From contig OX485805.1 in NCBI GenBank assembly GCA_950295325.1, positions 32,105,501-32,169,500 of the forward strand: a stretch of 64,000 bases of DNA. The letters are read 5' to 3'. Positions 9,311-64,000 of this stretch are shown piece by piece (positions within the stretch are counted from its first letter, which is position 1; each line of letters starts with the position of its first letter). The notes below the pieces were generated by a model that was not told where the DNA came from, made no database searches, and saw only the letters and a list, made by a program, of their open reading frames with translations. Position numbers and translations under genes: made by a program. Source of the DNA: Polytrichum commune. Lineage: Eukaryota > Streptophyta > Polytrichopsida > Polytrichales > Polytrichaceae.

Positions 9311-9433
9311 ATGTAGCTGGAAAACCAAACACAAAACATCACAATCAACATAATTATGTGATATACCAATATGCAAGACACAAAACCTTAGGGAAGTTTG
9401 TAACTTCCTCTAGTAAGCCTTGTATATTTGTCA
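9259..9433 (-). repeat. 45-bp duplication of the receptor's first coding segment
   Basis: The sequence at about 9259-9303, which encodes MTNIQGLLEEVTNFPK at the receptor N-terminus, recurs at about 9389-9433, 130 bp upstream in the direction of transcription. The upstream copy keeps an ATG and is followed by AAG|GTTTTG, a possible splice donor. It could be an alternative or duplicated first exon, or a simple local duplication. Confidence 0.6.
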
Positions 9434-43027: not shown

Positions 43028-46000
43028 CTAAGAAGTAGACTTTGTCAAAAGACCCCCTTCGAGGATGAGTTTGACCTCATTGAAGCTAAATGTCGGGGCG
43101 TGAATGAACAAATTCACTTCCGCATCCAAATTAGAAACCTTGATGAAAATGTAATACAAATGTTTACAATTCAGATAAGAATTTCGTTTGCGGCTGTACT
43201 TGGAAATCATATCCAAGAAGTATGTGCAGTTGCACTCTGGAAGAGAACTGACTGTGACTTGGTAGATCGGTGGTTGGGGTTCTGATTTGGACTGCAGTGT
43301 GATAATGCAACCAAATCCTAGTTGAGGGATCATAGTTAACTTCAGAACGGTACCATGCATAGCTTCAGCAGAGGCCACCATCTGCCTCTGCTTTGCCGAA
43401 GGTGCGCTGCTGGATCGCCGAACAAGCTTGGACAATCTTGTCGGAGGGATCATGTCGGGGTTTTCTGGAACACGGATTCCAGACATATCCAGCGGGGGAG
43501 CAGAGTTGGTGAAGAGTTGAGTCGGTGTGATGCGCTCCTTTGGTGGGAGTTGAAAACCTGCGTTCTCAAGGGCGAAGATCTCCGAGCGGGTGAGGTTGGT
43601 ACCAATCTTCACGGGCCAGATTGGGGGAATAGAAGGCTTCTGGTCATCAGCAGAGAACGGCATGACCCATTTCCGACGAGGGCCCTTCACGCAACGCTCA
43701 ATGTTGTCTGGGCAAAAGACAAAGTCCGTGCGCTTCATCGATTGGAGTTTGTAATGATGCCACATACCGGTGTAGGTCGGCGCAGGGACGCTCTTATTAT
43801 TAGTGACGATTCTTGCGGTGCACTTCTTCTTCGTGCCCGCATGATTAGCCCAACAAGACTTCCCAGACGTATAGGGTATGCGGGCAATATGCCAAAGAGA
43901 GACATCTACTTTGGTTTCTTGCACGGCAGTGACACGCTGGAAACCAAGTCCTGCAGGTGAAGGCACTTGAACCTCTTGTACAGAGGGGGAAGACTCCTCA
44001 ATGATAGTGGGTAGTGTTTCTGGTTGAGATCGAGTGACACGCTTACCGGGGGGAGGGCGAGAGAAGTTCACGGTATCGGGGCGGTGGGTCTCGCCATCAT
44101 CACCAATTGGAGTGTCTGGTCTTCGCTTCTGCGATCCAAACACCTCGGCGCCCTCAAGGTGTGGATCGCGAGTGCAAAATTCTTCCCCACCGGACATGTC
44201 AAGCAAGACCTTCTGCAACACTGTGGGGTCGCCAGTACGCTGAGCTCGACGTTGAGCACCCCTGAGCTTTAGTTCTTCTTTGCTTGGACCATCTCCGCCA
44301 ATTCCACCTTTAAGGAACTGGTAGTATGCAACAACTTGTAAGAAGGCGCGAATGTAGTCGTCAACCGTAGCCACGTATAGATCTCCACCCTTGTTGCCGG
44401 AGGCTTGAAGCCACTTGTTGTGGACGGACTCCGCAAGATTGCACGACGGCATCTCGGCCAATTGGTCTTGGGTTAAAACCTTTTCCTGATTGGAGAAATC
44501 AAGTATTAATATAAATGTACAGAGAGAGGAAATCGAATCCAAGAAAAACCAATAATGAATTATGAAGGAGATGTACCAGTTCCATGAAACCACCCCATTG
44601 AAGGTAGCGGAAGTGCCAAAAAGCAAGCCAGAGCTGAAGATGCTTGAGACCGTCCTCACTTGTACAATTTGATGACGCCCACCAAGCCTTGATAGCTAGG
44701 TACCTAGTCTCAGCCTCTTCCATAGATGACGCATTTCGATATTGAAGGCAAAGATGTCTATGTTGGTCTTGTAACTCATGCTTTATATACGATTTCGTAT
44801 GTTTTTCGAGTGATTGTTTCCAATGGAAAAAACAAGTGCGCTCACGACCCTCCATTGGAACTTTGGGATCCCCTGAACCGTACACAATGCGAACAGCGTT
44901 CCAATTGGCTTGGGCACTGTCCGCCATGAAGCCTATAAAGTTTGGATGTGGGATACCGTGTCGGGCCATGACGTGGTTGAGGTTATGCCAGAAGAGAACT
45001 TGGGCATCCTTATCCTCCGATTGGAAATCACAACATGAAATGGTCATGACCCGTTGATAAGTCCCATCGTACACATGAGCGGCCATGGTGGTCCACCCTT
45101 TGACCCGCTTCACATGATCGGACATCATCCACGCGTTCTCCAGGTCCCCACCCGGTTGCATCCGACGAACCAAATCCACTCCACTTCCAGGACCAACCTC
45201 CGACATCTTGAAGACGAACACCTTGTCTGTATCGTCACCTTGTCCTGGGAATTGATTCCGTTGGACGTAGGCCCAATTGCTAATACCTCGGAGCTTTGCG
45301 ATGCCATCCATAACACCAAACCTCCGCAAATATTTGAAAGAGGTAACCTTAGAGCGAAGGTTTGGGGAATTCAACTCTCTACAGCTTTCAAAAACAGGTT
45401 CAAGCTCTTTTAAAGAGAAGAGACGGTGTGTGTCATTATCGCCAGAAAGGAGAAACTCACCAACAATGTCTTTGCTAGCTTCAAGGACGATCTTGCTGTG
45501 GGTGGCTTGAGGCGTACGTTCAACGTGCTCCTCAAGAAGTGCATTGATACGCTTCCGACTGTCTCTGCAGTCTCCAACCTTCACTGGATGTTGATGAGAA
45601 CCGAGATGAATGCAGGCTCTTTGGGATGACTCCTTCCCATGGACGTAGAAGATTTTGGCCTCGCATAGTGCAATGCATTTGGGAGGCTCTTTACAGATCC
45701 TGCAGACAAGAGTAGATCCGGATGGCACAATGCCAGAGAGAGGGAAAGGATCTTTAGTGAAACCTTCAAATTCTGTGTCATTGACCTTAGAGGTACGATG
45801 GGCGCGTTGAAGGTAATCACAACTCAGGTTTTGGCATTGGAGATGGCCAACACAGGTAGAGGAACGAAATGCAAGGCCAACGTCGTTTGTAATGTTGGTG
45901 GTTTGAGTCTTAGTCCAAACATGGCCATCATATTGCTTGTCCATGCTGTCCAACGACTTGGCCCTGGTTTGAGATGAAGAGACTTCTGCTGCAGGGAGGA

Positions 46001-46700
46001 CAAATAACTGGGTGCCATCGAAACGAGGGGGAAGGTGATTAACTTCTTGGATTTTGATTTTATCGTAATCTATTTTCTTGAGGACGTTCTTACTACCGGG
46101 CATAGAGCCAAGACGACGAAGACATTGAACAATAGTTTGAGGAGGTTTAGATGTAGGGACCGAAGGAGTTGAAGGGACAGAGCTAGATGGAGAAGGCGTT
46201 ACGTAGGATGCAAAGGGAAACAAATGAGGGAAATCATGGACAGCAGCCTTATGCACTGGTACATCTTCACTCGAAGAATCAGACAAGTCTATAACGTTGT
46301 CTACACCAGGCTCGGTCTTGACGCTTATTACCGGGGGTGTGCTAAAGGCAACAGTGGATGATCGAAGAGGAGGAAGGATTTCTGTTGACACTCCCATCTG
46401 AGAATCTGGCCAGCCACAAACCCTATACTTTCCCGCGCCAAGCTCCCACACTACATTGCCATTGTCAGTTACCTTGGAGGTCTCATGGAAGGTATGAACG
46501 AGCAATCCAGTATCAGGATGGTAGATCTCACGCTCTACCCATATTGTACTAGCTTTCAAAGAGAACCTAATGCTAAGATGAAGCTCCGAGACAACAACAA
46601 TACCTTGTGCACCAATGGGGAATATAATAGGGACCCCGATGCCATGTGAACGAAGTTCGGCCATCTCAGAGACGGGAGGAAGAATTGAGGTGGAAGCCAT
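43028..46700 (-). CDS. MULE-like transposase with SWIM zinc finger, intact
   Basis: Two exons, 46700-44577 and 44485-43028, are joined in phase 0 (donor CTG|GTACAT, acceptor CAATCAG|GAAAAG). They give about 1,193 aa without interruption. The core carries YDGTYQ (Asp about 545), FMADSAQANW (Asp about 594) and CFFHW (His about 625), matching a Mutator-like DDE transposase. A Ser/Pro-rich linker with an acidic patch follows. A SWIM finger closes the protein: C1126, C1128, C1148 and H1150 (CNC ... CKH). The N-terminal 500 residues include Cys/His pairs (CICKEPPKC-like) that may bind DNA. The start at MASTSILPP is preferred; an upstream ATG at 46739 is in frame. It probably moves DNA by cut and paste. 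Divergent transcription of the next gene suggests a two-gene element. TIRs were not found. Confidence 0.82.
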
Positions 46701-47019
46701 GAAGGCAGAGAAAACAAACGTGAAGGAACAAAGATGCAAAGATGCATAGAGAAGGAAAATGGTGATGACGATGAAATTATAAACAAATACGCATGAATAT
46801 CAGGAAGGAGACAAAACTGTCAGGCATCCTAAAAAAAGATACCCCTAATTACAAAGATGGTTGTCAGATAGTAAAGCGCGCCTCCCATCAGGAGGTATTG
46901 CAATTATATACTGAGAAGAATGCGATTGCTCACTTTCTTTCCAATGTGTGAGTTTGATGTGGTGAGGTTGTGGAAAGGAAATAGAGCGAATAGGTCTGAA
47001 TTGCGGGAGGGTTGAACAC
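46701..47019. promoter_or_regulatory. Divergent promoter region
   Basis: A 319-bp interval separates the transposase start (-) from the basic-protein start (+). On the plus strand TTATATACTGAG near 46907 is a plausible TATA box. On the minus strand TTTATAATTT near 46777 is a candidate. Confidence 0.4.
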
Positions 47020-48040
47020 ATGAAGGAAATAGGCAATTCACAACCTCCGACAACGGAACCATCTAAGAAAAAGAAGAGGAGGCGATCGTCTACACATTAC
47101 ACTGATAAGAAGAGAAAGACAGTGAGGACACAAAAGTCACAGGCAAGGAAAGCGCCAATCGTGGGCCGTGGGACGCCCGAGGATTTGAGCCAAGGCATAA
47201 AGGACCTGCGGAAACCTTCGTGGAGGCTAGACTGTGGGATTCGGCCTTTTCATTTATCACCGATTGTAGAAGAGGCAGACGGAAGTAAAGCGCAACCAAT
47301 GGCAGAAGTGGAGGAGTTGGGAAACGACAACATCCAAGAGGACTCACGCGAAGAAACAAACTCTACAAGTGTCGTACGTATTCTTCGGGTTCTCCATATA
47401 TTCAGTTGTTTGAGCACATAATGAAAATGGTAGAACATATTCAACTGTGAAACAACTTTTCTTTTAGATATTATGGTTTGTCATCATTGTTATAAACATT
47501 GTTTTATCTTAAATATAGGAAGAGGGGGGGAGTGGAGATAGTGGAAATATCTACGAAGAAGACAACAAGGAGGTAGCACAACAAATTGAGAAGGCGTTAG
47601 AAGAGCGAGAACCGATGTCGGGACAACCAACGATTCAAGCAAGAGAAAAAATGAAGGCGTCCAAGAGGAAAGCGGCAAAGGAAGATCTGAAATCAAATTT
47701 GTTGGGAGGCCGCGAAAGAGCTGAAGGAGGAGACCCATGCGCAGAAACCCTAAGTGTGGATGTTGTGACCCCTGCTTCAAGATTTATGCGAAGCAAGGCG
47801 GGCGGAACACAACAAACATCAAGGCGAGGGCGTGGCCGCAGGAGAGGAATGGCGCAAGTAAACCTCGGAGATTCGAGAAGCACTCCAATATCGCCGACAG
47901 AGGACGGGACCTCGGAAGATAGTGGCGCCAATATAGGGGCTTCAGTGGAGGGCATACTCCAATTTCTGGTAAGGTGTCGGGATCTCGGCCAAGCTATGTT
48001 CGCCAACGTTTTTGCTTTCTATCACCTTGATTTCTCATAG
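47020..48040 (+). CDS. Basic, low-complexity nuclear-type protein, partner of the transposase
   Basis: Two exons are inferred: 47020-47373 (donor GTC|GTACGT) and 47519-48040 (acceptor AATATAG|GAAGAG), phase 0, about 291 aa. The protein starts MKEIGNSQPPTTEPSKKKKR and has a strong nuclear-localisation cluster (KKKKRRR), then acidic Glu-rich stretches and an RRGRGRRRG motif. No known domain was recognised. A second phase-0 donor (CTG|GTAAGG at 47969) could splice out the palindrome-rich DNA that follows, so the 3' end is uncertain. Divergent pairing with the transposase suggests an accessory protein of the same mobile element. Confidence 0.55.
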
Positions 48041-48106
48041 TATTTGGAATATCAGCTTGACTTGCTTTCGGCCTTGTCTTGATTTGGGTTTAGGAACATG
48101 TCAAGA

Positions 48107-49560
48107 AAGGTATGTTTGTGCTTGAAAAATCAAAAGGTTATGTGCACATCATGTTGCTCTCGGCCTTGTCTCGTTTTGTGTAGTGCACAAGAACGAGCTA
48201 GGGGAAGAGGCCTCGGATCCGAGACCTCATATTTGTGTAAGTTTGACTATGTGAAAGGTAGGGTTTTGAGAGAGGCGAGGTTCTTGATTTCTCAAACTAA
48301 TGGAATGTTGACTTTCTTGCTTTCTTGATTCCTTGCTCTCGGCCATTTCTTCTATTGTGTAGTGCATAAGTGGGAGCCATAGGAAGAGGCCTCGGATCCA
48401 AGGCCTCTTATTTGTGGGTAGGTTTGTGCTTGAAAAATCAAAATGTTATGTGCACATCAATTGCTCTCGGCCTTGTCTTGTTTTGTGTAGTGCATAAGAA
48501 GGAGCTAGGGGAAGAGGCCTCGGATCCGAGGCCTCTTATTTGTGTAAGTTAGAGTATGTGAGAGGTAGGGTTTTAAGAGAGGTGAGGTTCTTGATTTCTC
48601 AAACTAATGGAATGTCAACTTTCTTGCTTTCTTGATTCCTTGCTCTCGGCCATTTCTTCTATTGTGTAGTGCATAAGTGGGAGCCATAGGAAGAGGCCTC
48701 GGATCCGAGGCCTCTTATTTGTGGATAGGTTTGTGCTTGAGAAATCAAAATGTTATGTGCACATCAATTGCTCTCGGCCTTGGCTCGTTTTGTGTAGTGC
48801 ACAAGAACGAGCTAGGGGAAGAGGCCTCGGATCCGAGGCCTCTTATTTGTGTAAGTTTGAGTATGTGAGAGGTAGGGTTTTGAGAGAGGTGAGGTTCTTG
48901 ATTTCTCAAACTAATGGAATGTCAACTTTCTTGCTTTCTTGATTCCTTGCTCTCGGCCATTTCTTCTATTGTGTAGTGCATAAGTGGGAGCCATAGGAAG
49001 AGGCCTCGGATCCGAGGCCTCTTATTTGTGGGTAGGTTTGTGCTTGAGAAATCAAAATGTTATGTGCACATCAATTGCTCTCGGCCTTGGCTCGTTTTGT
49101 GTAGTGCACAAGAACGAGCTAGGGCAAGAGGCCTCGGATCCGAGGCCTCATATTTGTGCAAGTTTGAGTATGTGAGAGGTAGGGTTTTGAGAGAGGCGAG
49201 GTTCTTGATTTCTCAAACTAATGGAATGTCAACTTTCTTGCTTTCTTGATTCCTTGCTCTCGGCCATTTCTTCTATTGTGTAGTGCATAAGTGGGAGCCA
49301 TAGGAAGAGGCCTCGGATCCGAGGCCTTTTATTTGTGGGTAGGTTTGTGCTTGAAAAATCAAAATGTTATGTGCACATCAATTGCTCTCGGTCTTGTCTT
49401 GTTTTGTGTAGTGCATAAGAAGGAGGTAGGGGAAGAGGCCTCGGATCCGAGGCCTCATATTTGTGTAAGTTTGAGTATGTGAGAGGTAGGGTTTTGAGAG
49501 AGGTGAGGTTCTTGATTTCTCAAACTAATGGAATGTCAACTTTCTTCCATTTTTGATTCC
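48107..49560. repeat. 307-bp satellite, each unit with two 22-bp palindromes
   Basis: The perfect palindrome with core AGGCCTCGGATCCGAGGCCT starts at 48207, 48386, 48514, 48693, 48821, 49000, 49128, 49307 and 49435. The gaps alternate 179 and 128 bp, which makes an exact 307-bp period. Two copies have single changes (48207, 48386). Units also share CTCTCGGCC, TTTTGTGTAGTGCA and CTCAAACTAATGGAATGT. Small open frames here are repeat artefacts. Confidence 0.93.
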
Positions 49561-49680
49561 TTGCTCTCTGCCTTGTGCCCCACGGGCGAACGCCCGTGGG
49601 CCATGTAACAAGTAACTTGGTTAGGCATGTCTTTATGAGGCACTTTGGTTGGTTCTGAGTATGTAAACTAGTTTGTGTGT

Positions 49681-50840
49681 GAGGCCTCGGATCCGAGGCC
49701 TCTCGGCCGAGGCCACTTGAGGTTTTTTGATTCAAAGTATAACTTGTATGAATGAGGCACTTTGCTTGTTTTTGAAGATGTAAACTAGTTTGTGAATGAG
49801 GCCTCGGATCCGAGGCCTCTTTTATGTGTTCCAAAACATGTGTACGGATGAGGCACTTTGGTTTGTTTTGAGTATGTAAACTAGTTTGTGAATGAGGCCT
49901 CAGATCCGAGGCCTCTTTTATGTGTTCCAAAACAAGTGTACGGAAGAGGCACTTTGGTTGGTTTTGAGTATGTAAACTAGTTTGTGTGTAAGGCCTCGGA
50001 TCCGAGGCTTCTCGGCCGAGGCCACTTGAGGTTTTTTGATTCAAAGCATAACTTGTATGAATGAGGCACTTTGCTTGTTTTTGAGGATGTAAACTAGTTT
50101 GTGAATGAGGCCTCGGATCCGAGGCCTCTTTTATGTGTTCCAAAACAAGTGTACGGATGAGGCACTTTGGTTTGTTTTGAGTATGCAAACTAGTTTGTGA
50201 ATGAGGCCTCGGATCCGAGGCCTCTTTTATGTGTTCCAAAACAAGTGTACAGATGAGGCACTTTGGTTTGTTTTGAGTATGTAAACTAGTTTGTGAATGA
50301 GGCCTCGGATCCGAGGCCTCTTTTATGTGTTCCAAAACAAGTGTACGGAAAAGGCACTTTGGTTGGTTTTGAGTATGTAAACTAGTTTGTGTGTAAGGCC
50401 TCGGATCCGAGGCCTCTCGGCCGAGGCCACTTGAGGTTTTTTGATTCAAAGCATAACTTGTATGAATGAGGCACTTTGCTTGTTTTTGAGGATGTAAACT
50501 AGTTTGTGAATGAGGCCTCGGATCCGAGGCCTCTTTTATGTGTTCCAAAACAAGTGTACGGATGAGGCACTTTGGTTTGTTTTGAGTATGCAAACTAGTT
50601 TGTGAATGAGGCCTCGGATCCGAGGCCTCTTTTATGTGTTCCAAAACAAGTGTACAGATGAGGCACTTTGGTTTGTTTTGAGTATGTAAACTAGTTTGTG
50701 AATGAAGCCTCGGATCCGAGGCCTCTTTTATGTGTTCCAAAACAAGTGTACAGATGAGGCACTTTGGTTGGTTTTGAGTATGTAAACTAGTTTGTGTGTA
50801 AGGCCTCGGATCCGAGGCCTCTCGGCCGAGGCCACTTGAG
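49681..50840. repeat. 96/117-bp higher-order array of the same palindrome
   Basis: Twelve palindromes start at 49681, 49798, 49894, 49990, 50107, 50203, 50299, 50395, 50512, 50608, 50704 and 50800. Spacings are 117, 96, 96, then 117, 96, 96, 96 repeated. The 117-bp units carry a 21-bp extension with CGGCCG. Both lengths are multiples of three, which keeps a 444-codon minus frame open; each palindrome reads EASDPRP there. No gene is inferred. Confidence 0.93.
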
Positions 50841-51058
50841 GTTTTTTGATTCAACGTATAGCTTGTATGAATGAGGCACTTTGCTTGTTTTTGAGTATGT
50901 AAACTAGTGAAGTGTCCATCGGCATCTACATTTCACGTAGATGACGATAGAGTGGTTGATTGTTAGATTCGGAGACCACACGTGGAAGATATGGAGGTCC
51001 GAAGCTGCGGGGGGGGGGAAATGTGTTTTGTTAAGTGCATAAGTAGGAGCTTTGGGAA

Positions 51059-51336
51059 GAGGCCTCGGATCCGAGGCCTCTTTTTTGTGTCAAGGTTTGT
51101 GCTTGAAAAATGAAAATGTTAGGTTCATTTTTGAATTCTCTCGGCCATTTTGTGTAGTATGTATTTCATAAGGAGGGGCATTCGGAAGAGGCCTCGGATC
51201 CGAGGCCTCATTTTTGTGTCAAGGTATGTGCATGAAAAATTAAAAATTTATGTTCATTTTTGAATGCTCTTGGCCCTCTTGTTTTGGGTAGTGCATAAGT
51301 AGGTACTTTGTGAAGAGGCCTCGGATCCGAGGCCTC
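51059..51336. repeat. Three further AGGCCTCGGATCCGAGGCCT palindromes
   Basis: Perfect copies at 51059, 51188 and 51315 (spacing 129 and 127) sit in units related to the 307-bp satellite (GTGCATAAGTAGG, TTTGTGTCAAGG). Confidence 0.9.
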
Positions 51337-51559
51337 ATTTTTGTGTCAAGGTATGTGCTTGAAAAATGAAAATCTTATGTTCATTTTTGAATGCTCTTGG
51401 CCTTCTTGTTTTGGGTAGTAACACTATATTCGTTAAATTGAGACTTTTTGGGCATTTTGAGACATTCACAAAAATAAGAACAAGGATAAATGGAACACAT
51501 ATTGGAGAAAGTTGTAAGATGCGAACACTTTGAAGCGGGTGTTTAGAACAAGATCCCCA

Positions 51560-51850
51560 TTAATAACTCATATTTGGGATTGTTTAGGGTGGGCAATCCA
51601 AACCTTAGGCCAAGTTGAAGGGGAAATCTTAAAACATTCATATTATCGCACAAAAACTTGTATGAATATGGTTTAGGTAGGGCAATCCAAACCATAGATC
51701 ATATTGAAGGGGAAATATGTGAACCAATATAATATAACATACAAAATATTCCAAACTCATATTTGTGATGGTTTAGGTAGGGCAATCCAAACCTTAGACC
51801 ATATGGAAGGGGAAATCATGTGACACTTATATTATTGCAAAAAAAACATA
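51560..51850. repeat. Three diverged 90-100 bp units
   Basis: GGGCAATCCAAACC recurs near 51591, 51680 and 51780, each followed by AGGGGAAAT. No palindrome or gene is present. Confidence 0.6.
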
Positions 51851-51957
51851 CAAAGTGTGGCATGTAAAATGCATAGCATGCTAACACCACACATCCATTG
51901 GATAGTGCGACCCAAAATGTTCTTGCCTATGGCCCACAACCCTACGCCTACTATGGC

Positions 51958-52842
51958 CTATCTAGCCTCGGAGACTACCTCTTTTTCTTTTGCTTTTTTT
52001 TCTTTTGCCTCTTTTTCTTTTGCTGCGGCTTCTTTTGCTCGCATTGCTTCAACATTCCTGAAAATCTCCGCCCCGCGACTATAGCCATTCTTGGGGTGAC
52101 CGCCATCAAAAACACATTTTGGATTCCGTCGGCCGCCCGAATTATACGACGAAGAATTCGAATACGATGAAGTGGACTGTCTTGCATTTCTGGTCATGGA
52201 GTAGAAACGCTCCAACTCGACGGACGCACTAGCCCGCATAGGTTTACGGGTGGGAGCAACCTGCAACGCGTCAATGCAAGAACACACGTGTTAGTTTAGG
52301 GAGGAAGACCCAAACGTGTCACACGTTCATTTTTTAAGTGCCGGATGATTGTAATGCGCGGTTAACCATGTTTGGGGGGGGGGGGGGGGGGGGTTCACCT
52401 TGTCACCGGGGGCGTTCCCGTCGGGGTCGGCGAGGAGGGGCAATGCGTCCCGCAAAGGAATAGGAAGGGTGCCACTCTTCGTAGGCCGAGCGTCCATCCG
52501 CAGCCGCCGTTGAGGTGTACTACTGCCGCCGGGCCGAGACGGGGACGTCCGGACGCATTTGCGATTTATGCCCTTGAGCGGCGACGGGGACGGAGATGGC
52601 CGGAAGATTTGCTTGGGTGGGGGGCTATCGACGACGCCGGCGTCGATAGGCTCCTTGGAGTAGTCGATGGTGGACGCGGCATCGTAGACGGTCTCGTAGA
52701 AGAAGCTCCCCAAGTTTGATTCGCTGACGATCTCAATCGAGGGCTCCAAACGCTGGCGCAAAAAAGGAAACAAAACAAAACCCAAGGGGAGGGGGGAGCA
52801 TGTGAAAATCGATATACAATTGAGGCATAATATATCACACAC
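51958..52842 (-). CDS. Small Pro/Ser- and Lys/Glu-rich gene, function unknown
   Basis: Two exons are supported: 52752-52399 (acceptor GCGCCAG, donor AAG|GTGAAC) and 52260-51958 (acceptor GTTGCAG), phase 0, about 218 aa. The first encodes RLEPSIEIVSESNLG..., a Pro/Ser-rich basic middle with RRLRMDARP. The second encodes ASASVELERFY and ends in a KEKEAKEKKAKEKE coiled/charged tail. The start is uncertain: the frame stays open to 52842 but without an ATG. It is also in the same frame as the FCP1-like exon upstream, separated only by the TGA at 52866-52864 and 111 bases. It may therefore be the 3' end of that gene. Confidence 0.5.
52374..52393. repeat. G20 homopolymer next to a splice donor
   Basis: Twenty consecutive G on the plus strand (C20 in the minus-strand intron), starting immediately after the donor GTGAAC. 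Similar long G runs occur at 53891, 63170 and 63240. Confidence 0.9.
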
Positions 52843-52863
52843 AATGGCACACCATGTAGTATC

Positions 52864-53709
52864 TCAAATGAGTTTATTATATTTCGCGTGAGCGTACAAC
52901 TCTCTATACATATAGTCCTTCGGATCCATGTATCTTTCGCCTATCGGATTACAACTAAGGAACCGGGGCACGGGTAGTCCGCTCCCCACGAGCGTTTGAA
53001 TGTACTTAAGTAGGTCTAACAAAAAGCGGTCTCGGACCTTCTCGACCGTCCACGTGGGGCAAACTATGAAGTTCGAGGTCGGGTTCAAAATGTTTTTGGA
53101 AGCGCTGTCGTCCACCATCAACGTGTTGTCACGGGTGGGGCGAACGTCGTAGGGACAGCCGACCATGGTCGGACGCTGGTCCCATACGACTGGCTTCAAG
53201 ACCTTAAGAAATTGGTTTACGGCGGGGTTGTTGGGCTTTTTCACAACCCTGCCCTCGGGGGTGTATAACGTTCTACAAGAGTCCTGTCCTAGGACCAAGC
53301 ACGGGGGTTGGAGTCCCTTGAAGATGAACTCCACGACGGCCTGGGTGTTCTCGGACTTCATGGAGCTCCACACGATCACCCACCATTTGGATAGGGCGAC
53401 CTGCAGGAAGCGCCGAAGCCACGGGCGGAGGTACACTAGCTTGCTTTTGATGTACGCGGGGGGACCATCGTAGTTGGCGTCCTCGGGCTTGCAGAAAGGC
53501 ACCGTGGGGACCCTCGGACAATGCACGCACTGGACAAGGACCCCGTTGAGGTCTAGCACCAGGAACCGGGTCTTGGGAGGCGAAGGTGGCGAGGGCAAAA
53601 TCGGGGGGACCACCGCGCTGTCCTCCACACTCCTCGGAGAGGATCGGTGGGGAGCTGCGACGCTATGCTCCGAACCCTGCGGCGACGAGCGAGAGAAGGC
53701 GGACGAGGA
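52864..53709 (-). CDS. FCP1/SCP-like HAD phosphatase exon (DLNG type)
   Basis: The exon encodes an NLI-interacting-factor / FCP1-like HAD domain. It shows FLVLDLNGVLV (motif I), VIVWSSMKSEN (motif II), and NTLMVDDSASKN with FIVCPTW (motif IV). The second Asp of the usual DxDxT is Asn, as in a plant clade with DLNG; activity is therefore doubtful or altered. The fold is complete and ends KYNKLI at TGA 52864. There is no ATG: the frame is open back to an in-frame TAG that forms a good acceptor (AACATAG|TCC, exon start 53709, phase 0). The nearest upstream minus-strand exon ends with a phase-0 donor at 54170, so this is probably the C-terminal domain of the ParB/methyltransferase-like protein. 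An unseen private first exon is the alternative. Confidence 0.68.
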   Translation of the reverse strand, partial: SSSAFSRSSPQGSEHSVAAPHRSSPRSVEDSAVVPPILPSPPSPPKTRFLVLDLNGVLVQCVHCPRVPTVPFCKPEDANYDGPPAYIKSKLVYLRPWLRRFLQVALSKWWVIVWSSMKSENTQAVVEFIFKGLQPPCLVLGQDSCRTLYTPEGRVVKKPNNPAVNQFLKVLKPVVWDQRPTMVGCPYDVRPTRDNTLMVDDSASKNILNPTSNFIVCPTWTVEKVRDRFLLDLLKYIQTLVGSGLPVPRFLSCNPIGERYMDPKDYMYRELYAHAKYNKLI

Positions 53710-54169
53710 CTATGTTATGCTATGTCCATCTCAAGCAGAACGGAAATTTTGTGCAAACACAAGAAGAATTGGACCATTGGTGGCAACAAAAACATACAAG
53801 GGGAACAACATACATTGGGACACGGATGCAAACATATGGGCGCCAAAAATAATAATTTTATTTTTACAAATTTCTATGTACAATTTGATTGGGGGGGGGG
53901 GGGACCGCGGTGAACGAGGGCATTCACACTATCCTAATTCTACATCTACAAAATTGGTTGCGCGCCGCCAAGGTCGAGCATAGTCGAGTGCAGGTGAGAC
54001 GAAGGGGATCGCGGGGGGGCACGTTGGGGGGAGGGGGAGCAAGTGTAGAGCATGGGGGGCAGGGGGTGTGCATTTCCTCCTAGCAAGGGGGACACGACCA
54101 CGCCAACAAGACAATGACCCAGGAAGTTTGGGTCGGTCGACCCAAACTGGGGAGGGCTCAGTGTATTAC
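53710..54169 (-). other. Probable intron linking the methyltransferase-like and FCP1-like exons
   Basis: It is bounded by GAG|GTAATA and AACATAG|TCC, both phase 0. It contains one TTTGGGTCG palindrome (54126-54147) and a G13 run at 53891. No exon with its own ATG was convincing here. Confidence 0.45.
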
Positions 54170-54539
54170 CTCGCCCTGGTCATGTCTCGACGATGTGGAA
54201 GCCTCCACCGTCCCCGCTGCCCCGCCTCTCTCGCCACCGCCTTCTCCGACGACGTCAGGAACCTTCTCCTGCAAACGATCGGCATCAGGCCCTTGTCCTA
54301 AACCAATCTCCGCATTTGCATCATGCATGGGTTCATCGATTTGGTTAGGAGTAGAGGTATCACCAGGCCCTTGCAAGCCTTCAACATCTAGCATGGCCGT
54401 GTCTAGTTGACACCCATGTTGGTCAAGGGAGGACTGCGCTGCAACGGGGTTTGGGTCGGGCGACCCAAACTGTCCTGCATCTGGAGAGGGCCCTTCGGAC
54501 ACTCCAGTGGATGGTGGGTTTGGGTCGGTCGACCCAAAC
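54126..54539. repeat. Three TTTGGGTCG-NN-CGACCCAAA palindromes, two of them in coding sequence
   Basis: Copies lie at 54126-54147 (intron), 54449-54470 and 54518-54539 (exon 3). Centres are GT, GG and GT. The two exonic copies encode FGSPDPN and FGSTDPN in the minus frame. Confidence 0.95.
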
Positions 54540-57500
54540 ATCCTGGGGTCGTCCGATTGGTGAGGGGGCGCCATGACTATCGGGGGCCGAAGTGGTGGAG
54601 GGCCCAAAGGGGAGGAGGCTCCAGAGACGCGCCAGATGTTGGGGTCATCCACTTGCTGGACCGGCGCGTACGGAACTTGGTGGGGCCGAATCAAGTGCTG
54701 GAAGCTGAAAGACGATTGCGGCACAAGCTGCTGAGGGATGCTCTGCGGAGGGAAGCCGGGGGGCAAGTGCGGGAAGGAGCTGGAGGGAGCCACCACCAAA
54801 CCTTGCGCCCACATTCCTTGTATCACTTGTGATATCAATTCGGCGTGGGACGGAGGTTGGGCCATCGCCCTCTGTCGTTCCTGCTCCAACAGGAGAGCCC
54901 TTAACTCTGCTACCTCGTTCCGCATTGAGGGTTCTTCCGCGGCAGCCTTCTGCAGGCGGACTCGCTGCTCCTCGTCCCTCCTCATCTTCTCGTTCGCCTC
55001 CTCCACAGTCAGGACCTCGGGCTTCACCCTAACCATGCCAGCGAACGCTGTCGGGGACGGGGGATCTGATCTTAGCCGTTTGGCGAGCTCAATGTCATCG
55101 TCGTCCTCGCTGCTTATGGCAATGGTCTCCTCCACGGAGTAGTCGCCATACAGCTTCTTCCCCTTCATCTTCCTCCTCTCCCTGAACGTGGCGGTCGCGT
55201 CCCTGGAGTACATGTCCCGTGCATCGTCCACCGTCAGGACGGGCACGAGCTTACTCTGCGGGGTTGCCGCCCGCATCGCCTTCTTCCGTTGAGGGGCTTC
55301 GGATTCTTGCGTGAAGCCCGTTGCCCCTTCCTCCACGTCGCCTTCCTTCTCCGCCTCCTCGTGCTCCTCTTCTTCCTCCTCCTCCTCGACATCGCCACCT
55401 TCTGTGCGGGACGGATTGCCCGGATGCAACCCGACAAGAGGTTCGGGTTCTTGGGTTGTGGCCCTCATGGCCATTTCTTCCGGGTTGATCCGCCTCACCC
55501 TATCAAGAGGGTTTTCGCCCCCCTGAACAACCTCGTCGACGTAGCTACCCGGGATCCAATCGAGGATGTCCATCTTCTTCGCCAACGATCTCTGCGTCCT
55601 GTAAAATGGCAGATCGCCATCCTCTATGTAGGAGTATATACTCAGCCCCGACATCTACACAATCCAAGTTATATAGACATTAGAATTAGGCGAGGGACAT
55701 AAACAAGACCAAGTACAATGTGTAGTTTGGGTCGATCGACCCAAACCAACAAAGAGCCTAGTTTGGGTCGATCGACCCAAACCAACACAGAGCCTAGTTT
55801 GGGTCGATCGACCCAAACTGCGCACGAGTTATAGAAAGTCGCTTACCATGGCAGCATAGATAGGTTTAGAGCCTCCGAAGACGTTGAAGATGCAATCCCC
55901 TCTCCTCGTCAGCGTCCTCATCATTCTCACGTAAAATTCCATCCGCAGCTCATCTAAAGGATAGTTCGCGTATTTAGCCTCGTCGTAGAGGCACTTGTTG
56001 ACACCCAACCCTTCTGGAACTTGGAAGAGTTTGTCCATCCGGGATATAGGGTGGTTCGGCACCTTCAGCAACTCCGCTTTGTACACGAAGTACAAACACA
56101 AGACGTTGACGAACTTGGTCTTCTTGTCCCTCAACGTCGTGTAAGCTCCCTCCGCCGGTGCGGCGATGTAGTGAGACTTGGAGACTGCATACTCCGGCTG
56201 CAGTTTCCGGACAAGCTCGTACACCTGCTCCGCCCTCCTATCCTCGACTATCCAAAGCCAGATATCTACCTCCCTGAACTTAGGGCTTGCATAATCGACG
56301 AACTTAGATAGGAAGGGGTCATAGAAGAGGGTGCTCATCGTGCCCTCAAATGAGCTTCCAGGAATATTCCTGAAATCAATCATCCCAAAAGGAAAGCGGT
56401 CCCTTGCTTTCGTCCTTATCGCCATTCTGGCGTCTTGACCTGGCCAACCCTGAATTTTCAACGGGTCGGCGGTGACAAGGTTGAAGTACGCTTCCCCTTC
56501 AAACTGGACAATCTTCTTCTCCTTGATGAAGTTCGAGAACGCACGCGCTGTGTGATCCGGAAGCGCCCGGTTCTTCCCACCCTTCACCATCTTGGCCCGC
56601 AAGAAGTCGTCCCCCGCTTCCCTTATTAGAGCCGCCATGGAGGCACTGGTGAACTTATATTCAGCTTTGAATGCTCTCCAGTTAGCCTCATGGACCTCGC
56701 CGTCCACGACAATATTCCTCTCTGGCACTAGTTTATGCAGCTCCTGCACGATAGTCGTCTTCTTTTTCCTGTTATCCGTCCATTCCTTCATGGTGTAGCA
56801 TGAAGGAACGAAGGATTTGGGCTTTTGGAAGACAATCTTCGGGTGCACCCAACACCTCTTCGCCGTGGGTGCCACGTGCAGGATGTGAGATGCCGCCTTC
56901 TCCACCTCCGTCTCTGACAGCCCTTGAAGAGTTCTAAAGAACTCTCTCACGAGAGGCTTCATCTGCTTGAAGCGCGAGGTTTGGCTGAAGAAAATGCCAG
57001 TGTCGGGGTCGATCAAATCCCCCGTCTCGTGCTTTTCAAACACGGTTTTCCACTTCTTCCAAACTGAGTCAGATGTTGTAATCAAGTAAATCTCCCCCTT
57101 GAGGTCGCTGTATTTCTTCTGCTTGTGGCTCGAATTATCAATGGAGGAGAATTTGTTGATCATTTGGTATTTGAAATCCTGCACGTCCACAAAACAGAAC
57201 ATTTGAATGCGTGTTAGATATGTACATGTGATTTCCAACCCATATCATGACCAACATCTGCAACAACAGTTTGGGTCGATCGACCCAAACTAAATAAACT
57301 AGCTGCATCAGGAGTTTGGGTCGGTCGACCCAAACTAAATAAACTAGCTGCATCAGGAGTTTGGGTCGGTCGACCCAAACTAAATAAACAAGGCTGCATC
57401 AGGAGTTTGGGTCGGTCGACCCAAACTAAATAAACAAGGCTGCATCAGGAGTTTGGGTCGGTCGACCCAAACTAAATAAACAAGGCTGCATCAGGAGTTT

Positions 57501-58853
57501 GGGTCGGTCGACCTAAACAATACTCACCTCCCATTTGGGATTCTTGTCCTTCGCATTCTCCCTCTCCTTGGGAGGCCTACCATAGAACTCCCACACCTCC
57601 CGCGAGGCCATGATATTCCTTATCCAGGAAGCTTGGTAGGCCCTCTTCTTATTTCCCATATTGAAGTACCGGGAGATGTCGCTGAGCTTGGTCTCGTCGT
57701 CAGACCACACCACTAGTGCCTTCCAAACCTTCAGCTTTTCCTTCTGATTGTTCGGATCATCCCACTCATTCATGAGTTGGATTTTCTTGGATGCCTCCAC
57801 GCTGTGCTGGCCGTCTATGAGCCAAAAATCGCCCTTCTGAATTGTGGGCCACATTTCAGGTGTAGGCATTTTCTTGAGACCCTGTGGCATCACTACTATC
57901 GTTTGCCTGTCGTCTTTAAACTGCTCGCAAACGATCTGCGCGATTATCCAGTCAACGTAGGCGTCCTCCTTTGCCCGGACACACTTCTCCGGTGGCGCTA
58001 GATGGCACTGGCTGATGTTCACGTCGAACTTAAAATCCCTGCCCATGAAAAAACAGTGGGAGCATTTCGTCGTGAAATTGTTCACGATTTTCTGCAGCTC
58101 CCCTGCATCCACCTCTTCGCCGGGCTTCGGCATGCGCAACTCCGGTGAGACTGGCTCGTCAGTCATCACAGATGACTCTCTCCCCCTCTTGGATGGAGTT
58201 GTTTGACGGCTCCCAGAAGGTGTAGGCGTCTCGCTATCCGCAGGTGTTTGGGAGGGAGTGGTCCTCCGCGAGTCAGCCGGTACTGGTCGCGGCTTCCTCA
58301 CCGATTGAGGTCTTGACGACCCTGCTCCTTCCTCTGTGGTTGCTTTCCGCCTCACGGGTTGCTGAGACTTGGTTTTGCTCTGCAGGGCTTTGTTGAGCAC
58401 GCTGATTGCATGCTTTAGTTTCGTGAATCTGCTCGACACCTTTGTGTTCGATGTACTGTTATCGATGAATATGGACTCCGGTTTGATGACGTCTGGTTCT
58501 ACACATGTTTCTTTTGCATAGATAGCGTCAAAGGGTTCGGAGAACTGGTGCATAAACATATGCGCGTTCTGGACAGCGTTGTTCTCGAGGATGACATCCA
58601 CGTAGTCTCCAAGAGACTGAACCGATGCCACCTCCCACCCCGTAAGAGTAGCCCATGTGTGCTTCTCCACGGTCCCAACCTTCACAACAAAAATCATTTT
58701 GTATTGCGAACCCTTAACCACTTGTATAGACCACGCGAGGACAAGCCCGTCCTTAGGGGAATAGGAGTCATCCTGCGGGGTTTCGTGCTCCTGCCACAAC
58801 ATGTCCGGCGCAGGCATGAACCACCTTTCGCCGGGTCTTTTCTTTGGAGCCAT
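54170..58853 (-). CDS. ParB/DGQHR-like plus degenerate DNA-methyltransferase-like protein
   Basis: Exons 58853-57528, 57178-55847 and 55654-54170 are joined in phase 0 (donors GAG|GTGAGT, ATG|GTAAGC; acceptors GTGCAG, GTGTAG). The ATG follows a CTTACAG acceptor, so a 5'-UTR intron is likely. Exon 1 (442 aa) has an unknown N-terminal domain, a Pro/Ser/Thr-rich linker, and a ParB-like domain at about 265-360 (NISQCHLAPPEK, IVVMPQGL, FWLIDGQHSVEASKKI). Exon 2 (443-886) ends GDCIFNVFGGSKPIYAAM, continuing in exon 3 as SGLSIYSYIEDGDLPFYRTQ. This resembles motif I and the following strand of beta-class N4/N6 DNA methylases (DPFxGSGTT ... IGIE). A DPPY motif is not seen, so it is probably inactive or diverged. 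Exon 3 (887-1381) is Glu/Pro/Gln-rich and disordered. The GAG|GTAATA donor leads toward the FCP1-like exon. Function unknown; DNA association is inferred. Confidence 0.7.
55725..55818. repeat. Three intronic palindromes, 36-bp spacing
   Basis: Perfect 22-bp palindromes at 55725, 55761 and 55797, all with centre AT, separated by an AACAxAGAGCCTA spacer. They lie within the 192-bp intron between exons 2 and 3. Confidence 0.95.
57269..57518. repeat. Six intronic palindromes in a 45/46-bp minisatellite
   Basis: Copies start at 57269, 57314, 57359, 57405, 57451 and 57497. The spacer is TAAATAAAC(T)A(A)GGCTGCATCAGGA-like. The last copy has one arm change (ACCTAAAC). The array fills most of the 349-bp intron between exons 1 and 2. 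Confidence 0.95.
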
Positions 58854-58879
58854 CTGTAAGAAAATAATGTGCAATGTTA

Positions 58880-59304
58880 GTTTCGGTCGTTCGACCCAAA
58901 CAACTACGACATGAATAGGTTTAGATGGATTGTATATTTATATATTTCAGCATCATTTGTATTGATAATAAGAATGTTTTGATTATTGGGTGGATTTGCA
59001 TTTTATATTGTTTGTGACATGCAGGATTACTTGATACTTTTCCTTGATACATTCCTTGATTATTATTTTTTAGTGGATGTGAATTTTATATTGATGCAAA
59101 AATCATGGATTTCTTTATGAATTTATAATTAGAAGACGTTGTTTGGGTCGTTCGGCCCAAACATGATGCTTTGTTTTGTGTTTGGGTCGGTCGACCCAAA
59201 CAAGAGACTGTGTTTTGTGTTTGGGTCGGTCGACCCAAACAAGAGGCTGTGTTTGGGTCGACCGACCCAAACCTGTGGCCGTGTTTGGGTCGTCTCCCCA
59301 AACT
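58880..59304. repeat. Six palindromes in the 5' leader/intron of the ParB-like gene
   Basis: Copies at 58880, 59141, 59180, 59219, 59251 and 59283. Centres vary (TT, GT, GT, AC), and 58880, 59141 and 59283 are imperfect in an arm. Confidence 0.92.
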
Positions 59305-60336
59305 TTCCTATTTTAATGTAATTTTTAAAAGTTGGCACGTAGCATATACAATGCTTATGCGTTGTGTATGCTACAATACCTTCAATTGACAAACACTTAT
59401 TGCATATAATAAAAGAAAATACCTTTGTTGTATGTAGCAGTTGTTGTAAACAGTTGCTTTAGAACAGGTGTTCTTCTTCCAATAACACAGAAACAGTTGA
59501 ATGTAACCTCTCACACAAATCCACAATCTCTCATACAACTCCTAGATCTCTTTTGAATCTCTCAAACAACAATTCAATACTTCAAACAACCTCTGAATCT
59601 CTAAGAACAAGTGAATCTCTCAAAACAATAACTGACTCTCTCAAATGACTTAGATATCTCTCAAACAACAATTGAGTGTTTCAAACAACCTCTGAATCCC
59701 TAAGAACAAGTGAATCTCTCAAAACAATGACTGACTCTCTCAAATGACTTTTGTATCTCTCAAACACCTCCTGATTATCTTATAGAACTCCTAAATCTCA
59801 CAAACTCTCCAACTACAATACAGCCTCCAAAACCCGCAAGCTTAGAATGTTGGAAAACCCTTCAACAATCTTCTACTTACTTCACTCTACAACAATCACT
59901 CTACTAACTCTCACGCACTCTAAAACTCTCTCCTTAGGTTTCTGTTCTATTGCAAACACTTCCTAACTTCTACAGCAAGAGAAGGGAGGGAAGGAGAAGA
60001 ATCAGTAGGCGCCAAAGCAACAAGAAGGGAGGGAAGAGAAGAAAATCGCCACCCTGAATCGCCACGGCGCTTCGCGAAAGCGGCGCTTCAGGAGAGGCGG
60101 CGCTTCCACAAGAGGCGCGGAGCGAATGCTTGGCGCGGAGAGAGAGAGAAAGAGCGAAAAGTTGTGACGGCTGGGGTTTTGTATGCCTCGGGAATTGGCC
60201 CCCAACCGCACGAATAGGGTGCCAACGGGATTAGGGCACCAACGGAATTAGGATTACGGGGAACCCTAAATCCTAAAGCCAAACTGTAAACCCTTAGCGG
60301 GCATTAGTATTTTCAAGACACTTTGGAGTACCCTAA
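59305..60336 (-). promoter_or_regulatory. Likely 5' leader and promoter of the ParB-like gene, with a 99-bp repeat
   Basis: No coding sequence is seen. On the minus strand this is GA/CT-biased, like plant leader sequence. A 99-bp unit (AAGAACAAGTGAATCTCTCAA at 59603 and 59702) is repeated just over twice at 59554-59770. A GC-rich segment (60050-60150) with an AGAGAGAGA stretch may mark the transcription start area. Inferred from position only. Confidence 0.35.
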
Positions 60337-60867
60337 TGGGGCATTCCCACTTGACTTTAGTTAAGACCCTCACTATTTTATAAAGACCGGGTAAAGCTCC
60401 CTCGGTTATAGCGGAGGCATCCAACTATCCCAATGCACCTACAAGAACTTGCTCCGGAGATTTTCAAGTAGGTTTTAGTTAAGTAGCTTTCACACATGTT
60501 CATGGTTTTATCTACCAAGCAATGAATGTTGGGTAGTTTTTGTCCCATCCCCAAATGCCTTACTACTCACCTATCTTACCATCGGTTTTTGTTAATGAAG
60601 CTCCTCGTGCCCTCATAGCTAAGACTAAAAAGCAACCAATCACAAGGGTGGGAGGCGACACTTTTAAAATTCCTATATTCTTGCCTAATGTTTAGGTACC
60701 GATGGGAGCGTCGGTGGTTGAGGCTTAAAACCTCCACTTTTAAGCCATGCCACATCATTTGCCACCTAGGCTCGGCACTAAAAAGAGCCATATGTGTGAA
60801 ACCTAGATAACTAAAACCGCATTTAGACTAATACTACTTCTAACTAATGTCAAGTGGGAATGCCCCA
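60337..60867. mobile_element. Tourist/Harbinger-like MITE, copy 2 (531 bp)
   Basis: Same length and nearly the same sequence as 21319-21849, with TIR TGGGGCATTCCCACTTGAC. It is flanked by TAA on both sides (60334-60336 and 60868-60870). High identity of the two copies indicates recent mobility. Confidence 0.88.
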
Positions 60868-61314
60868 TAAGGTGCACATCAAATGCGGTATTCTACAAAA
60901 TGAAACCATTTATACAACTAATGCATTTTTACAACGCAACGTTATGCTAAAACTAAGACTTAACCCCTACTCACATGACACCATAACCTAAATTTCCCAA
61001 ACAAGTTGAAATCATTGGTTTCTCTTTTGTTTGAGCAAGTTAGAAAAATAATACAATTGCGTGACATTTAACGATGTAATCGTTGACATTTAGACTTTAC
61101 CAATGATGCCAAGAACTCACACAATATGCAATGAATAAAAAATATAACCCCCGTCCCCCAACATGAAATTCGGAAATTTAGGATATTTGAATGTGTTTGC
61201 TAAATGTATACCTTCCCCAAGAGCATTTTCTCAGGGTTTGGAATTGCATGATCCTTATGTCGAAATGCTAACATGCTCAAGTTTTTAGTAAATCCCTTAC
61301 ATACTCACTTGAAT

Positions 61315-62145
61315 GAATCACATAGTCGCCAATAAACCATGGATCGTGATATATGTACTTCGAATGTGATATAAAAGTAAATCGGAGAACCACAACATCA
61401 AATGAAGCCCTTTGACGCAATCATGTTGTTATTGAATGTTCCCTCCACGTATATTACATAATGGCGCAAGATAAAGTTCATGTTGTTTGTATGTGGAGGT
61501 AGCAGTGAACAACTACGAATTTTTGTATTTAGGGTTTAGGGTTTAGGGTTTAGGAGTTAGGTTTATAACATATTAATCTATCCAATATTAACATATAACA
61601 TTGACTTACTGGTGAGAATAGGTTTTTACTGGAAGGTAATAGAAAAGACGATCTTGATTATGTTTATTTGTTATTACGGACGTTTAAACGTGATATAGTG
61701 AATGGTCTTGTGTTTATTCAAATAACATGAAATGTTGTGGATGTTATTAGGGGTAAGGGGTTCAACTTTGGATGTTTTGCTCACTTTAGGGAATCACATA
61801 GTCGCCAATAAACCATGGTTCATGATGTATTTAATATATGGAATGTGATGCAAAAGTAAATAAGAGAAGCACAACATCAAATGAAGCCATTCACGCAATC
61901 ATGTTCTTATTCATTGTTCCCTCCACATGTATTGGATAATGGAGAAAGATATAACAGATATTGTTTGCATAATATGAAGAAGAGTCTAATAGGAAGGTTA
62001 TAGTAAATACAATCTTGATCATGTTAATATGTTATTTGGGACGTTTAAACATGATATACTAATTGGTTTTGTATTTTGTCAATACGTATTTCATGTTGTG
62101 GATGTTATAAGGGTTTAGGGTCCAACTTTGGATGTTTTGGTCACA
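61315..62145. repeat. Tandem duplication (476-bp offset) with telomere-like tracts
   Basis: 61315-61790 recurs, diverged, from 61791 to about 62145. Shared landmarks are GAATCACATAGTCGCC, CAACATCAAATGAAGCC, GACGTTTAAAC and ACTTTGGATGTTTTG. (TTTAGGG)3.9 sits at 61528-61554 and shorter tracts near 62110 and 62305. No gene is seen between 60868 and 62630. Confidence 0.8.
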
Positions 62146-62629
62146 CACATTAGTAAACTTGAAGTGAACTTGAGGATGGATTGAAATAACATTAAAAGAT
62201 TGAACCAAAAAGCGACATTGCTAGTTAGTATCCCCTTAACAACGTCCACATACGTTTATCATTGCCACACTTCCATGCGAGATAACAGAGCCGCAATGTT
62301 CTAGGGTTTAGGGTTTAGGGGAGACAAATAAATAATTTTATTCATCATGACAATGGCCTCAAGCCTTGGAAACTCTCTCATAATTGCAACCTCTAAATGG
62401 CCCCAACCCCACCTAAATAGGTTTGCACTTGAAAGCATTGAATGGAGTTGTGGTTGGGTATACATATTGGTTAAAATATACCGTTGTGACACTTGAAAAA
62501 ATTAATGTGGCCGCCACCCTTCCTCCCAATGTCGTATGTCATATACACACAAAACCAAAAAAAGATTAAATATCATAGACTAAGACATATGACGGCTGGG
62601 GTATGAGAGGGGCATTGAAAGATGCGCAT

Positions 62630-63000
62630 TTTCTACAATAAACAGAAAACGGGGAATTCTGTCAGGAGGTTTGAAATAAGAAGGCGGGAAAGGCATCCAA
62701 TGAGGAAGTCGGGCAAGTGGAGGTGGATAGTATAAAGGGGCGCACCCCCCAAAAGTTGGTTCTTTTTTGCTCTTCTCCCACTCCTGAATTCGTAGAGAGA
62801 ACTCTTAGTCGGAGCTGTACTTTGAGGTTCGTTCACGCTGTTGTTCATGAGGACCTATTCACAGCATGCAAGTCCGCAGTGAACTTTGCAATGAGATGAA
62901 ATTCCACACACCTCTCAATATCCGCTGCATTATACGCCGCATTATACGCTGTATTATACGTCGGTCGACACTAGTGTTGGCGGGTTTCAATTTGACCCTT
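62630..63000 (+). other. Possible promoter/leader upstream of the 63-kb palindrome array
   Basis: A TATA-like AGTATAAAGGGG at 62728 precedes mixed-composition sequence. A 12-bp unit around GCATTATACGCC is repeated three times at 62927-62960. No convincing ORF is present; any transcript would run into the palindrome array. Confidence 0.25.
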
Positions 63001-63005
63001 GTGAG

Positions 63006-63955
63006 GTTTGGGTCGGTCGACCCAAACCCCTCCACTAGTGTGGGCGGGTTCTAGTCTGACCATTCTGAGGTTTGGGTCGATCGACCCAAACCCCTCCACT
63101 AGTGTGGGCGGGTTCTAGTCTCACCCTTGTGAGGTTTGGGTCGGTCGACCCAAACCCCTTCACTAGTGTTGGGGGGGGGGGGTCTAGCCTGACCCTTGTG
63201 AGGTTTGGGTCGATCGACCCAAACCCCTTCACTAGTGTTGGGGGGGGGGGGGGGTCTAGTCTGACCCTTGTGAGGTTTGGGTCGGTCGACCCAAACCCCT
63301 TCACTAGTGTTTGGGGGGGGGGGTCTAGTCTGACCCTTGTGAGGTTTGGGTCGGTCGACCCAAACCCCCTCACTAGTGTTGGGGGGGGGTCTAGTCTGAC
63401 CCTTCTGAGATTTGGGTCGGTCGACCCAAACCCCTACCCCACTATGGGCGTTTATCGTAAAACCTTTCAGAAGGTTTGGGTCGGTCGACCCAAACTTTTT
63501 CGCACATCGTGAACGAATTGTTAATGGCCCTTACCCAAGGTACTCAGAAGGTTTGGACGGACAGAGTAGGAACCTTATCCCATCATATGTAATGTTTGGG
63601 TCGAGCGACCCAAACCTCATCCCAGTGTGGGTGGATTTACACTGTGAAAGTTTGGGTCGACCGACCCAAACCCTTTCCCAGTGTGGGTGGACTTACCCTG
63701 TGAAAGTTTGGGTCGACCGACCCAAACCCCTTCCGAGTGTGGTGGGTTTACCCTGTGAAAGTTTGGGTCGGTCGACCCAAACCCCTTCCCAGTGTGGATG
63801 GATTTAGCCTGTGAAAGTTTGGGTCGACCGACCCAAACCCCTATCCAGTGTGGGTGGATTAACCCCGTCAAAGATTGGGTCGGTCGACCCAACCCCTTCC
63901 CCAGTTTCGGAGGTTGTAGTTGACCATGACAAGGATTGGGTCGGTCGACCCAAAA
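63006..63955. repeat. Dense array of 15 TTTGGGTCG-type palindromes
   Basis: Copies start at 63006, 63070, 63134, 63203, 63275, 63344, 63410, 63474, 63594, 63650, 63706, 63761, 63817, 63873 and 63934. The first half has a 64-72 bp period with spacer CCACTAGTGTxGGG...TCTAG(T/C)CTGACCCTTGTGAG and expandable G runs. The second half has a 55-57 bp period with CCCAGTGTGGGTGGATTTA...GTGAAA. Centres are GT, AT, AC or AG. The array probably continues beyond the window. Open frames on both strands are repeat artefacts. Confidence 0.95.
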
Positions 63956-64000
63956 TTTTCCCCACAGCGTGATGGAATTCTAAATGGCCCTCAACCCATC

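Follow-up and report, generated by a model that had tools for sequence, protein, structure and literature searches.

A high-copy transposon of Polytrichum commune carries a ParB/methyltransferase-like gene and palindrome arrays that may form a self-recognition system

How a gene of a plant genome comes to combine ParB-like, methyltransferase-like and FCP1-like parts is the question raised by a 64,000-nucleotide stretch of Polytrichum commune DNA (assembly GCA_950295325.1, contig OX485805.1, positions 32,105,501 to 32,169,500; the whole stretch is referred to here as the window). An initial annotation took the locus for a plant nuclear gene. Our results indicate that it is a mobile element and no host gene, and that two features had been overlooked, namely that a transposon of high copy number includes the gene and that it also contains a palindrome far above chance. 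We see an even chance that the protein, judged from its motifs and by analogy with the VANC proteins of Arabidopsis transposons, binds the palindromes of its own element and probably counters silencing, with diverging lineages switching from one palindrome to another.

Copies were sought across the 408 Mb of the genome from which the window comes. With exon 2 of the gene as the query, 1,239 first-look candidates were obtained; 94 of them were scored and 94/94 showed 92-100% identity. Copies of exon 2 were found on each of the contigs C1-C7, and 71 of the 94 scored, as counted from the listing, have no internal stop. A 127-residue piece of exon 1 gave 857 candidates, and the 150 that were scored were all 90-100% identical. 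The locus is recognised as mobile because both exons recur near-identically in so many dispersed copies. When the flanks of three further copies (A, B and C) were fetched and aligned, a common end was found, beyond which the sequences diverge, with the same 28 bp inverted at the left end. This terminal inverted repeat, AACACTATATTCGTTAAATTGAGACTTT, is present at both ends of 3/3 copies, and the three, each read at both ends, have 4-bp target duplications (ATAC, AATG and ATGT). Copy B is complete at 17.0 kb; A and C share its ends and contain inserts. On the right, the window copy stops at 51420; on the other side it runs on outside the window to coordinate 66298, at which point, compared with the other copies read, it breaks off or is interrupted. 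Of its 14.9 kb, 12.6 kb therefore lie inside the window. Introns and intact frames would suit the first reading, in which a host gene joins domains in a new way, but at least 94 dispersed near-identical copies, defined ends and target duplications rule this out, and we give it practically no credence. As a separate observation, three exon 2 copies with identical scores lie about 84 kb apart (C3:10601879, 10685654 and 10769496), and are probably a tandem segmental duplication.

The left arm of copy B, in the orientation of the element, carries two open reading frames (ORFs) of 507 and 504 residues on the opposite strand, the second of which matches DUF7869 (PF25273, 8.4e-42), which may represent the Sola transposase. 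The transposase gene and the ParB/methyltransferase-like gene, called here the second gene, are arranged head-to-head and divergently transcribed. No MULE match was obtained in Pfam for the transposase ORFs of this window-type element. It is probably a DNA transposon of the Sola group, since its large size and 4-bp target duplication fit the available part of an account of these transposons, which reports 4-bp target duplications, lengths of more than 15 kb in some, and their presence in the moss Physcomitrella (PMC10741241). Accessory genes and palindrome arrays are unmentioned in that part of the account (PMC10741241), and a literature search for DUF7869 found no paper.

The exons assigned to the second gene in the initial annotation are all open, in a single phase and bordered by GT and AG. 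Between exon 3 and the FCP1-like exon, a predicted splice from 54170 to 53676 is plausible; the donor (..QGE|GT) and the acceptor (CAG|GSEHS) are in phase in a diverged subfamily too. The FCP1-like exon ends in a stop, upstream of a probable downstream coding exon in which 132 of 149 aligned residues are identical in the diverged subfamily.

Divergence was measured between copy B and this diverged subfamily (copies S and T; loci L016-L017 and L021) over the exact exons, with copy T used for exon 3 and the FCP1-like exon, the tail of exon 3 being frame-shifted in copy S. The right part of copy S is inverted, while copy T has the normal order. In exon 1, 384 of 442 residues are identical (pN 0.079), and pS reaches 0.755, with synonymous sites saturated. 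The dN/dS values are 0.052 for exon 2 (dS 1.67), 0.17 for exon 3 (dS 0.97; synonymous difference 0.54) and 0.19 for the FCP1-like exon (dS 0.76). These low values across the exons indicate that the second gene is maintained under strong purifying selection. For the transposase ORFs, compared between B and S, dN/dS was 0.135 and 0.224, with dS of 0.29 and 0.47. Synonymous divergence falls along the element, from saturation in exon 1 to 0.29 in the main transposase ORF. The 5' exons of the second gene are older in history than the adjoining transposase, and the gradient suggests module exchange or conversion.

The palindrome of the window, TTTGGGTCG-NN-CGACCCAAA, is 20 letters long, with 18 bases around a free centre of 2 bp. 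At no more than 3 mismatches the window holds 34 matches (27 exact by our own count; one outside the element) against 0.03 expected; across the genome the exact sequence occurs 9,731 times and its reversed control 0 times. A logo of 109 sites from five stretches, taken at no more than 4 mismatches, is sharply bounded at 22 bp; 14 of the 16 dinucleotides occur at the centre and the flanks are random. Palindromes precede both genes and occur in each of introns 1-3; exon 3 contains another two, which are in frame and translated as FGSxDPN. Copies B and T both retain the two exon 3 sites undamaged and agree there in the third codon base of F, G, S, D and P. The palindrome is kept in the subfamily whose exon 1 is synonymously saturated, and the intron sequence around the sites is mostly unalignable between B and S. 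For 81 of the first 100 genomic sites listed, one of three scored ParB hits is no more than 8 kb away. Elsewhere, at C1:438280-478027, 14 window palindromes occur with single sites of two other palindromes and no scored ParB hit nearby.

The window-type element is inserted at 51420 into a separate repetitive element, the second family, whose ORFs at 43028-46799 (related loci L018-L019) had been considered as a window-type transposase and were rejected as part of this interrupted element. No transposase family in Pfam matched them. In another copy of this family, an intron-rich gene with exons predicted by eye lies beyond the arrays; its ParB-like motif is EGNHR, and it has a methyltransferase part as well. 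Against PDB, the methyltransferase profile of the family recovered DpnA (E 0.001) and CcrM (0.38). Two of four members match PF01555 (best 1.4e-4), and the first member scores 12.6 bits against a curated 26.7. Motif I (GxG and an acidic residue) is kept in the 2/2 members read that far, and all four members read have DIPE, NVPE or DVPD ([DN][IV]P[ED]) in place of DPPY. Methyltransferase relatives that lack the catalytic motif are thus present on transposons of the same genome. One relative, L036 (C1:9657001-9667000), lies above the PF01555 cut-off and reads DIPY; it is perhaps an older or domesticated form.

In the second family, the palindrome follows the protein lineage. The exon with the ParB motif gave 1,278 candidates, and the 150 that were scored were 60-100% identical; from these, 11 members were picked by hand across the identity range and 6 kb upstream of each was read. 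CCTCGG-NN-CCGAGG was found in 5/5 members at 72-87% identity, CCCTCTCGG-NN-CCGAGAGGG in 3/4 at 64-68% (L028 and L029, and L027 with 18 imperfect versions), and AATCCCACGG-AT-CCGTGGGATT in 2/2 at 60%, which gives three palindromes for three lineages. All have a common layout of two CpG-bearing arms and a 2-bp centre, and their exact genome-wide counts are 2,217, 2,064 and 85, with reversed controls of 0 each.

A third family, another DUF7869 element, has a 692-residue ORF and the palindrome CCCACGGGTG-NN-CACCCGTGGG adjoining the transposase, with 644 exact sites genome-wide and 0 for the reversed sequence. The second gene was not found in 20 kb around one transposase copy, because, as later palindrome positions indicated, that stretch was too near the transposase: in two other copies a second palindrome cluster lies about 15-22 kb from it. 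Two short stretches of one third-family copy were then picked by palindrome position and spacing, with exons of the second gene expected in them. The first (L039) contains a 415-residue ORF homologous to exon 2 of the window (29% identity over 200 residues, E 1e-20), with NICGGNKA aligned to NVFGGSKP at its end, at a place where exon 1 had been expected. A distant homologue of the window protein, in its exon 2 part, accompanies a different palindrome.

The domain labels given to the window protein in the initial annotation fared unequally. The FCP1-like exon was confirmed by Pfam (NIF, PF03031; 1.6e-13, 51.1 bits, cut-off 21.8) and is the sole part of the gene with statistical support. The catalytic motif of FCP1/NIF phosphatases is DxDx(T/V), which is absent here, with DLNGV in both subfamilies. 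Exons 1-3 gave nothing at E<=1 in Pfam and no convincing match in NCBIfam or PHROGs. The ParB-like label stands on the motifs of exon 1 (LAPPEK, IVVMPQGL and LIDGQHS), that is, on DGQHS, without a significant Pfam or PDB profile match, and no ParB chain was among the PDB profile results. Likewise, the methyltransferase-like label stands on a stretch resembling motif I, which reads NVFGGSK, with no DPPY seen and no match to PF01555. PDB searches with window-type alignments returned unrelated chains only (a nanobody at 0.026, a hypothetical protein at 1.5, a hydrolase at 1.9, and cytochromes); the cytochrome value of 3e-5 is a sum over three repeats, and no single stretch passes. Structure predictions from single sequences reached a mean pLDDT of 37.9 for the ParB-like part and 33.9 for exon 2, and did not confirm the folds. 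Profile-profile comparison of the window and second-family proteins does pick the expected motif, yet the scores are not above those of shuffles, being reached by 82/150 shuffles in the ParB region and by 15/120 and 10/120 in the methyltransferase region. No relatives were confirmed among viral contigs or bacterial and archaeal genomes. As for the suggestion that catalysis was lost while DNA binding was kept, a degenerate methylase is reasonable because the comparable second-family protein likewise lacks DPPY and its methyltransferase part has some statistical support; the binding would follow from the analogy drawn below.

To our knowledge, VANC is the clearest sequence-specific anti-silencing system known for plant transposons. 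According to the available parts of the reports on it, VANDAL21 of Arabidopsis has its motif repeated within accessory-gene introns and ahead of the transposase (PMC5735166), arrays diverge fast, and related families use different targets (PMC5735166, PMC10398659). The window-type element resembles this system, as it is there described, in its element-encoded accessory gene and in a short, family-specific motif in introns and upstream regions. It differs in its unrelated DUF7869 transposase without a Mutator-like match, in having a palindrome with a 2-bp spacer where the VANC motif is given as the nine-base YAGTATTAY (PMC5735166, PMC10398659), and in its ParB/methyltransferase-like and FCP1-like parts. 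We infer palindrome binding and counter-silencing; the placement of the palindromes and their change between families match VANC and VANDAL21.

A palindrome whose centre is free is a typical target for a dimer. The second-gene protein would thus bind the palindromes of its element as a dimer, the predicted target of the exon 1-3 protein being TTTGGGTCGNNCGACCCAAA, and its catalytic methylation would have been lost. Once bound, it may keep the promoters of its own element active, in the manner of VANC on VANDAL elements; host methylation and silent chromatin would most likely be kept out or undone. Protein lineages that diverge would switch palindrome, and the effect would then be confined to their own family. 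More tentatively, and with our judgement leaning against it, several unrelated giant transposons of this one genome may share one module, in which a catalytically dead ParB-methyltransferase-like protein for self-recognition is paired with lineage-specific palindrome arrays, each palindrome having a free 2-bp centre, across promoters and introns. A methylase of bacterial type would then have come to protect none but its own family from silencing, as a second, independent anti-silencing system of the VANC type.

Bacterial and phage proteins that join ParB to an N4/N6 methyltransferase have a ParB-like motif followed by a methyltransferase-like one. The motif order is the same here, but the genes are intron-bearing, belong to eukaryotic transposons and have a degenerate motif IV. 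That unrelated transposons can share a proposed anti-silencing gene is indicated by fungal DNA transposons of unrelated lineages that carry TET/JBP dioxygenases, for which such a role is proposed in the available part of the report (PMC12730594). The present case is similar in that a gene related to DNA modification is common to unrelated transposon lineages, and differs in the enzyme family and in the palindrome arrays, which that part of the report does not mention (PMC12730594). A search of the literature by title and abstract, without subscription journals or preprints, found no description of the module, which may still have been published. If the proposal is true, a second anti-silencing system would exist whose proteins are unrelated to those of the first, whose palindromic targets are clear, and of which a single genome holds several protein-motif pairs; the co-evolution of protein and target would be directly testable, the paired lineages being a natural experiment in the change of DNA specificity; and the survival of a bacterial-type methylase fold in a plant transposon after the loss of catalysis would be accounted for.

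The palindromes might instead be binding sites of the transposase or a requirement of transposition, like subterminal repeats, with the second gene as separate cargo. DUF7869 is found in both the first and the third families, with palindromes beside the transposase gene in each, and this would be expected of such sites; it also counts against our proposal. The sites, however, are internal, the array nearest to the left end of copy B starting about 4 kb from that end, and they occur within the second gene, in introns as well as in one exon. Moreover, the second family has palindromes although its ORFs match no Pfam transposase family, and different ParB-motif lineages have different palindromes there, in a comparison that covers ParB-motif lineages only. 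We consider this explanation unlikely. A role as host-factor or promoter elements, or as selfish tandem repeats that spread within transposons, without a dedicated binder encoded by the element, appears to us less probable again: the number of arrays does vary between copies, and L032 and L036 have the gene and no array in the stretch read, but near-exact conservation over 18 bases with random flanks and a free centre, the conserved third codon positions at the exon 3 sites, and the tie between palindrome versions and protein lineages are not what it would lead one to expect. As for the protein being an active DNA methyltransferase, by which the CpG-bearing palindromes of its element would be marked so as to recruit activators or protect the element, the motif I residues kept in two second-family members and the matches to DpnA and PF01555 speak for it; the replacement of DPPY in four second-family members, its absence from what was seen of the window protein and the DIPY of L036 make it very unlikely.

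Several further observations weigh against the proposed binding and anti-silencing. For the window protein, the labels ParB and methyltransferase are read from motifs and lack statistical support. The homology found in the third family is to exon 2 only, the ParB-like part being outside the stretches fetched, and the second stretch (L040), which has an acidic open frame at the position of exon 3, showed no detectable similarity. No array was found in the 6 kb examined for L032, a second-family member at 64-68% identity, or in the 10 kb examined for the relative L036. Second-family elements also carry a few third-family palindromes, and so have two palindrome types. Among the first 100 window-type sites listed, 19 are near none of the 150 scored ParB hits. 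Finally, a comparison of copies by their CpG transition counts gave no clear sign that methylation is escaped.

Table 1. Features of the window transposon, its palindromes and the interrupted second-family element (window coordinates)
Feature	Position	Strand	Basis or remark
Exon 1	57528..58853	(-)	N-terminal region and ParB/DGQHR-like motif region; ParB label by motif
Exon 2	55847..57178	(-)	methyltransferase-like motif-I region at end, NVFGGSKP..AAM
Exon 3	54170..55654	(-)	end of methyltransferase-like region, then acidic and proline-rich tail
FCP1/NIF-like exon	52864..53676	(-)	Pfam PF03031; D-L-N-G where D-x-D expected
Probable downstream coding exon (RLEPSIEIVSES...)	52399..52752	(-)	borders judged by eye
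Right terminal inverted repeat	51420..51447	(-)	plus-strand text AACACTATATTCGTTAAATTGAGACTTT; shared end of copies A, B and C
Window transposon copy, part (12.6 kb)	51420..64000	(-)	alignment with three other copies
Palindrome array, intron 1	57268..57519	(.)	46-bp units
Palindrome array, intron 2	55723..55819	(.)	36-bp units
Palindrome, intron 3	54125..54148	(.)	motif scan
Two palindromes within exon 3	54449..54539	(.)	motif scan
Palindromes upstream of exon 1	58880..59272	(.)	motif scan
Main palindrome array, transposase side	63005..63954	(.)	in copy B directly upstream of the transposase gene
Second-family element	42805-51419		separate repetitive element; arrays of GAGGCCTCGG-AT-CCGAGGCCTC; GAGGCCTCGGATCCGAGGCCTC arrays

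Other features were observed in the genome and in the window. Contigs C10 and C12, outside the seven large contigs, have strong N6_N4_Mtase matches and are perhaps bacterial contamination of the assembly. Within the window, an ORF at 29466-29939 matches a MULE transposase domain, and protein kinase, NB-ARC and LRR ORFs lie in a row at 1159-9409 together with a 144-bp tandem array of about 36 units, which is likely to be one kinase-NBS-LRR resistance gene.

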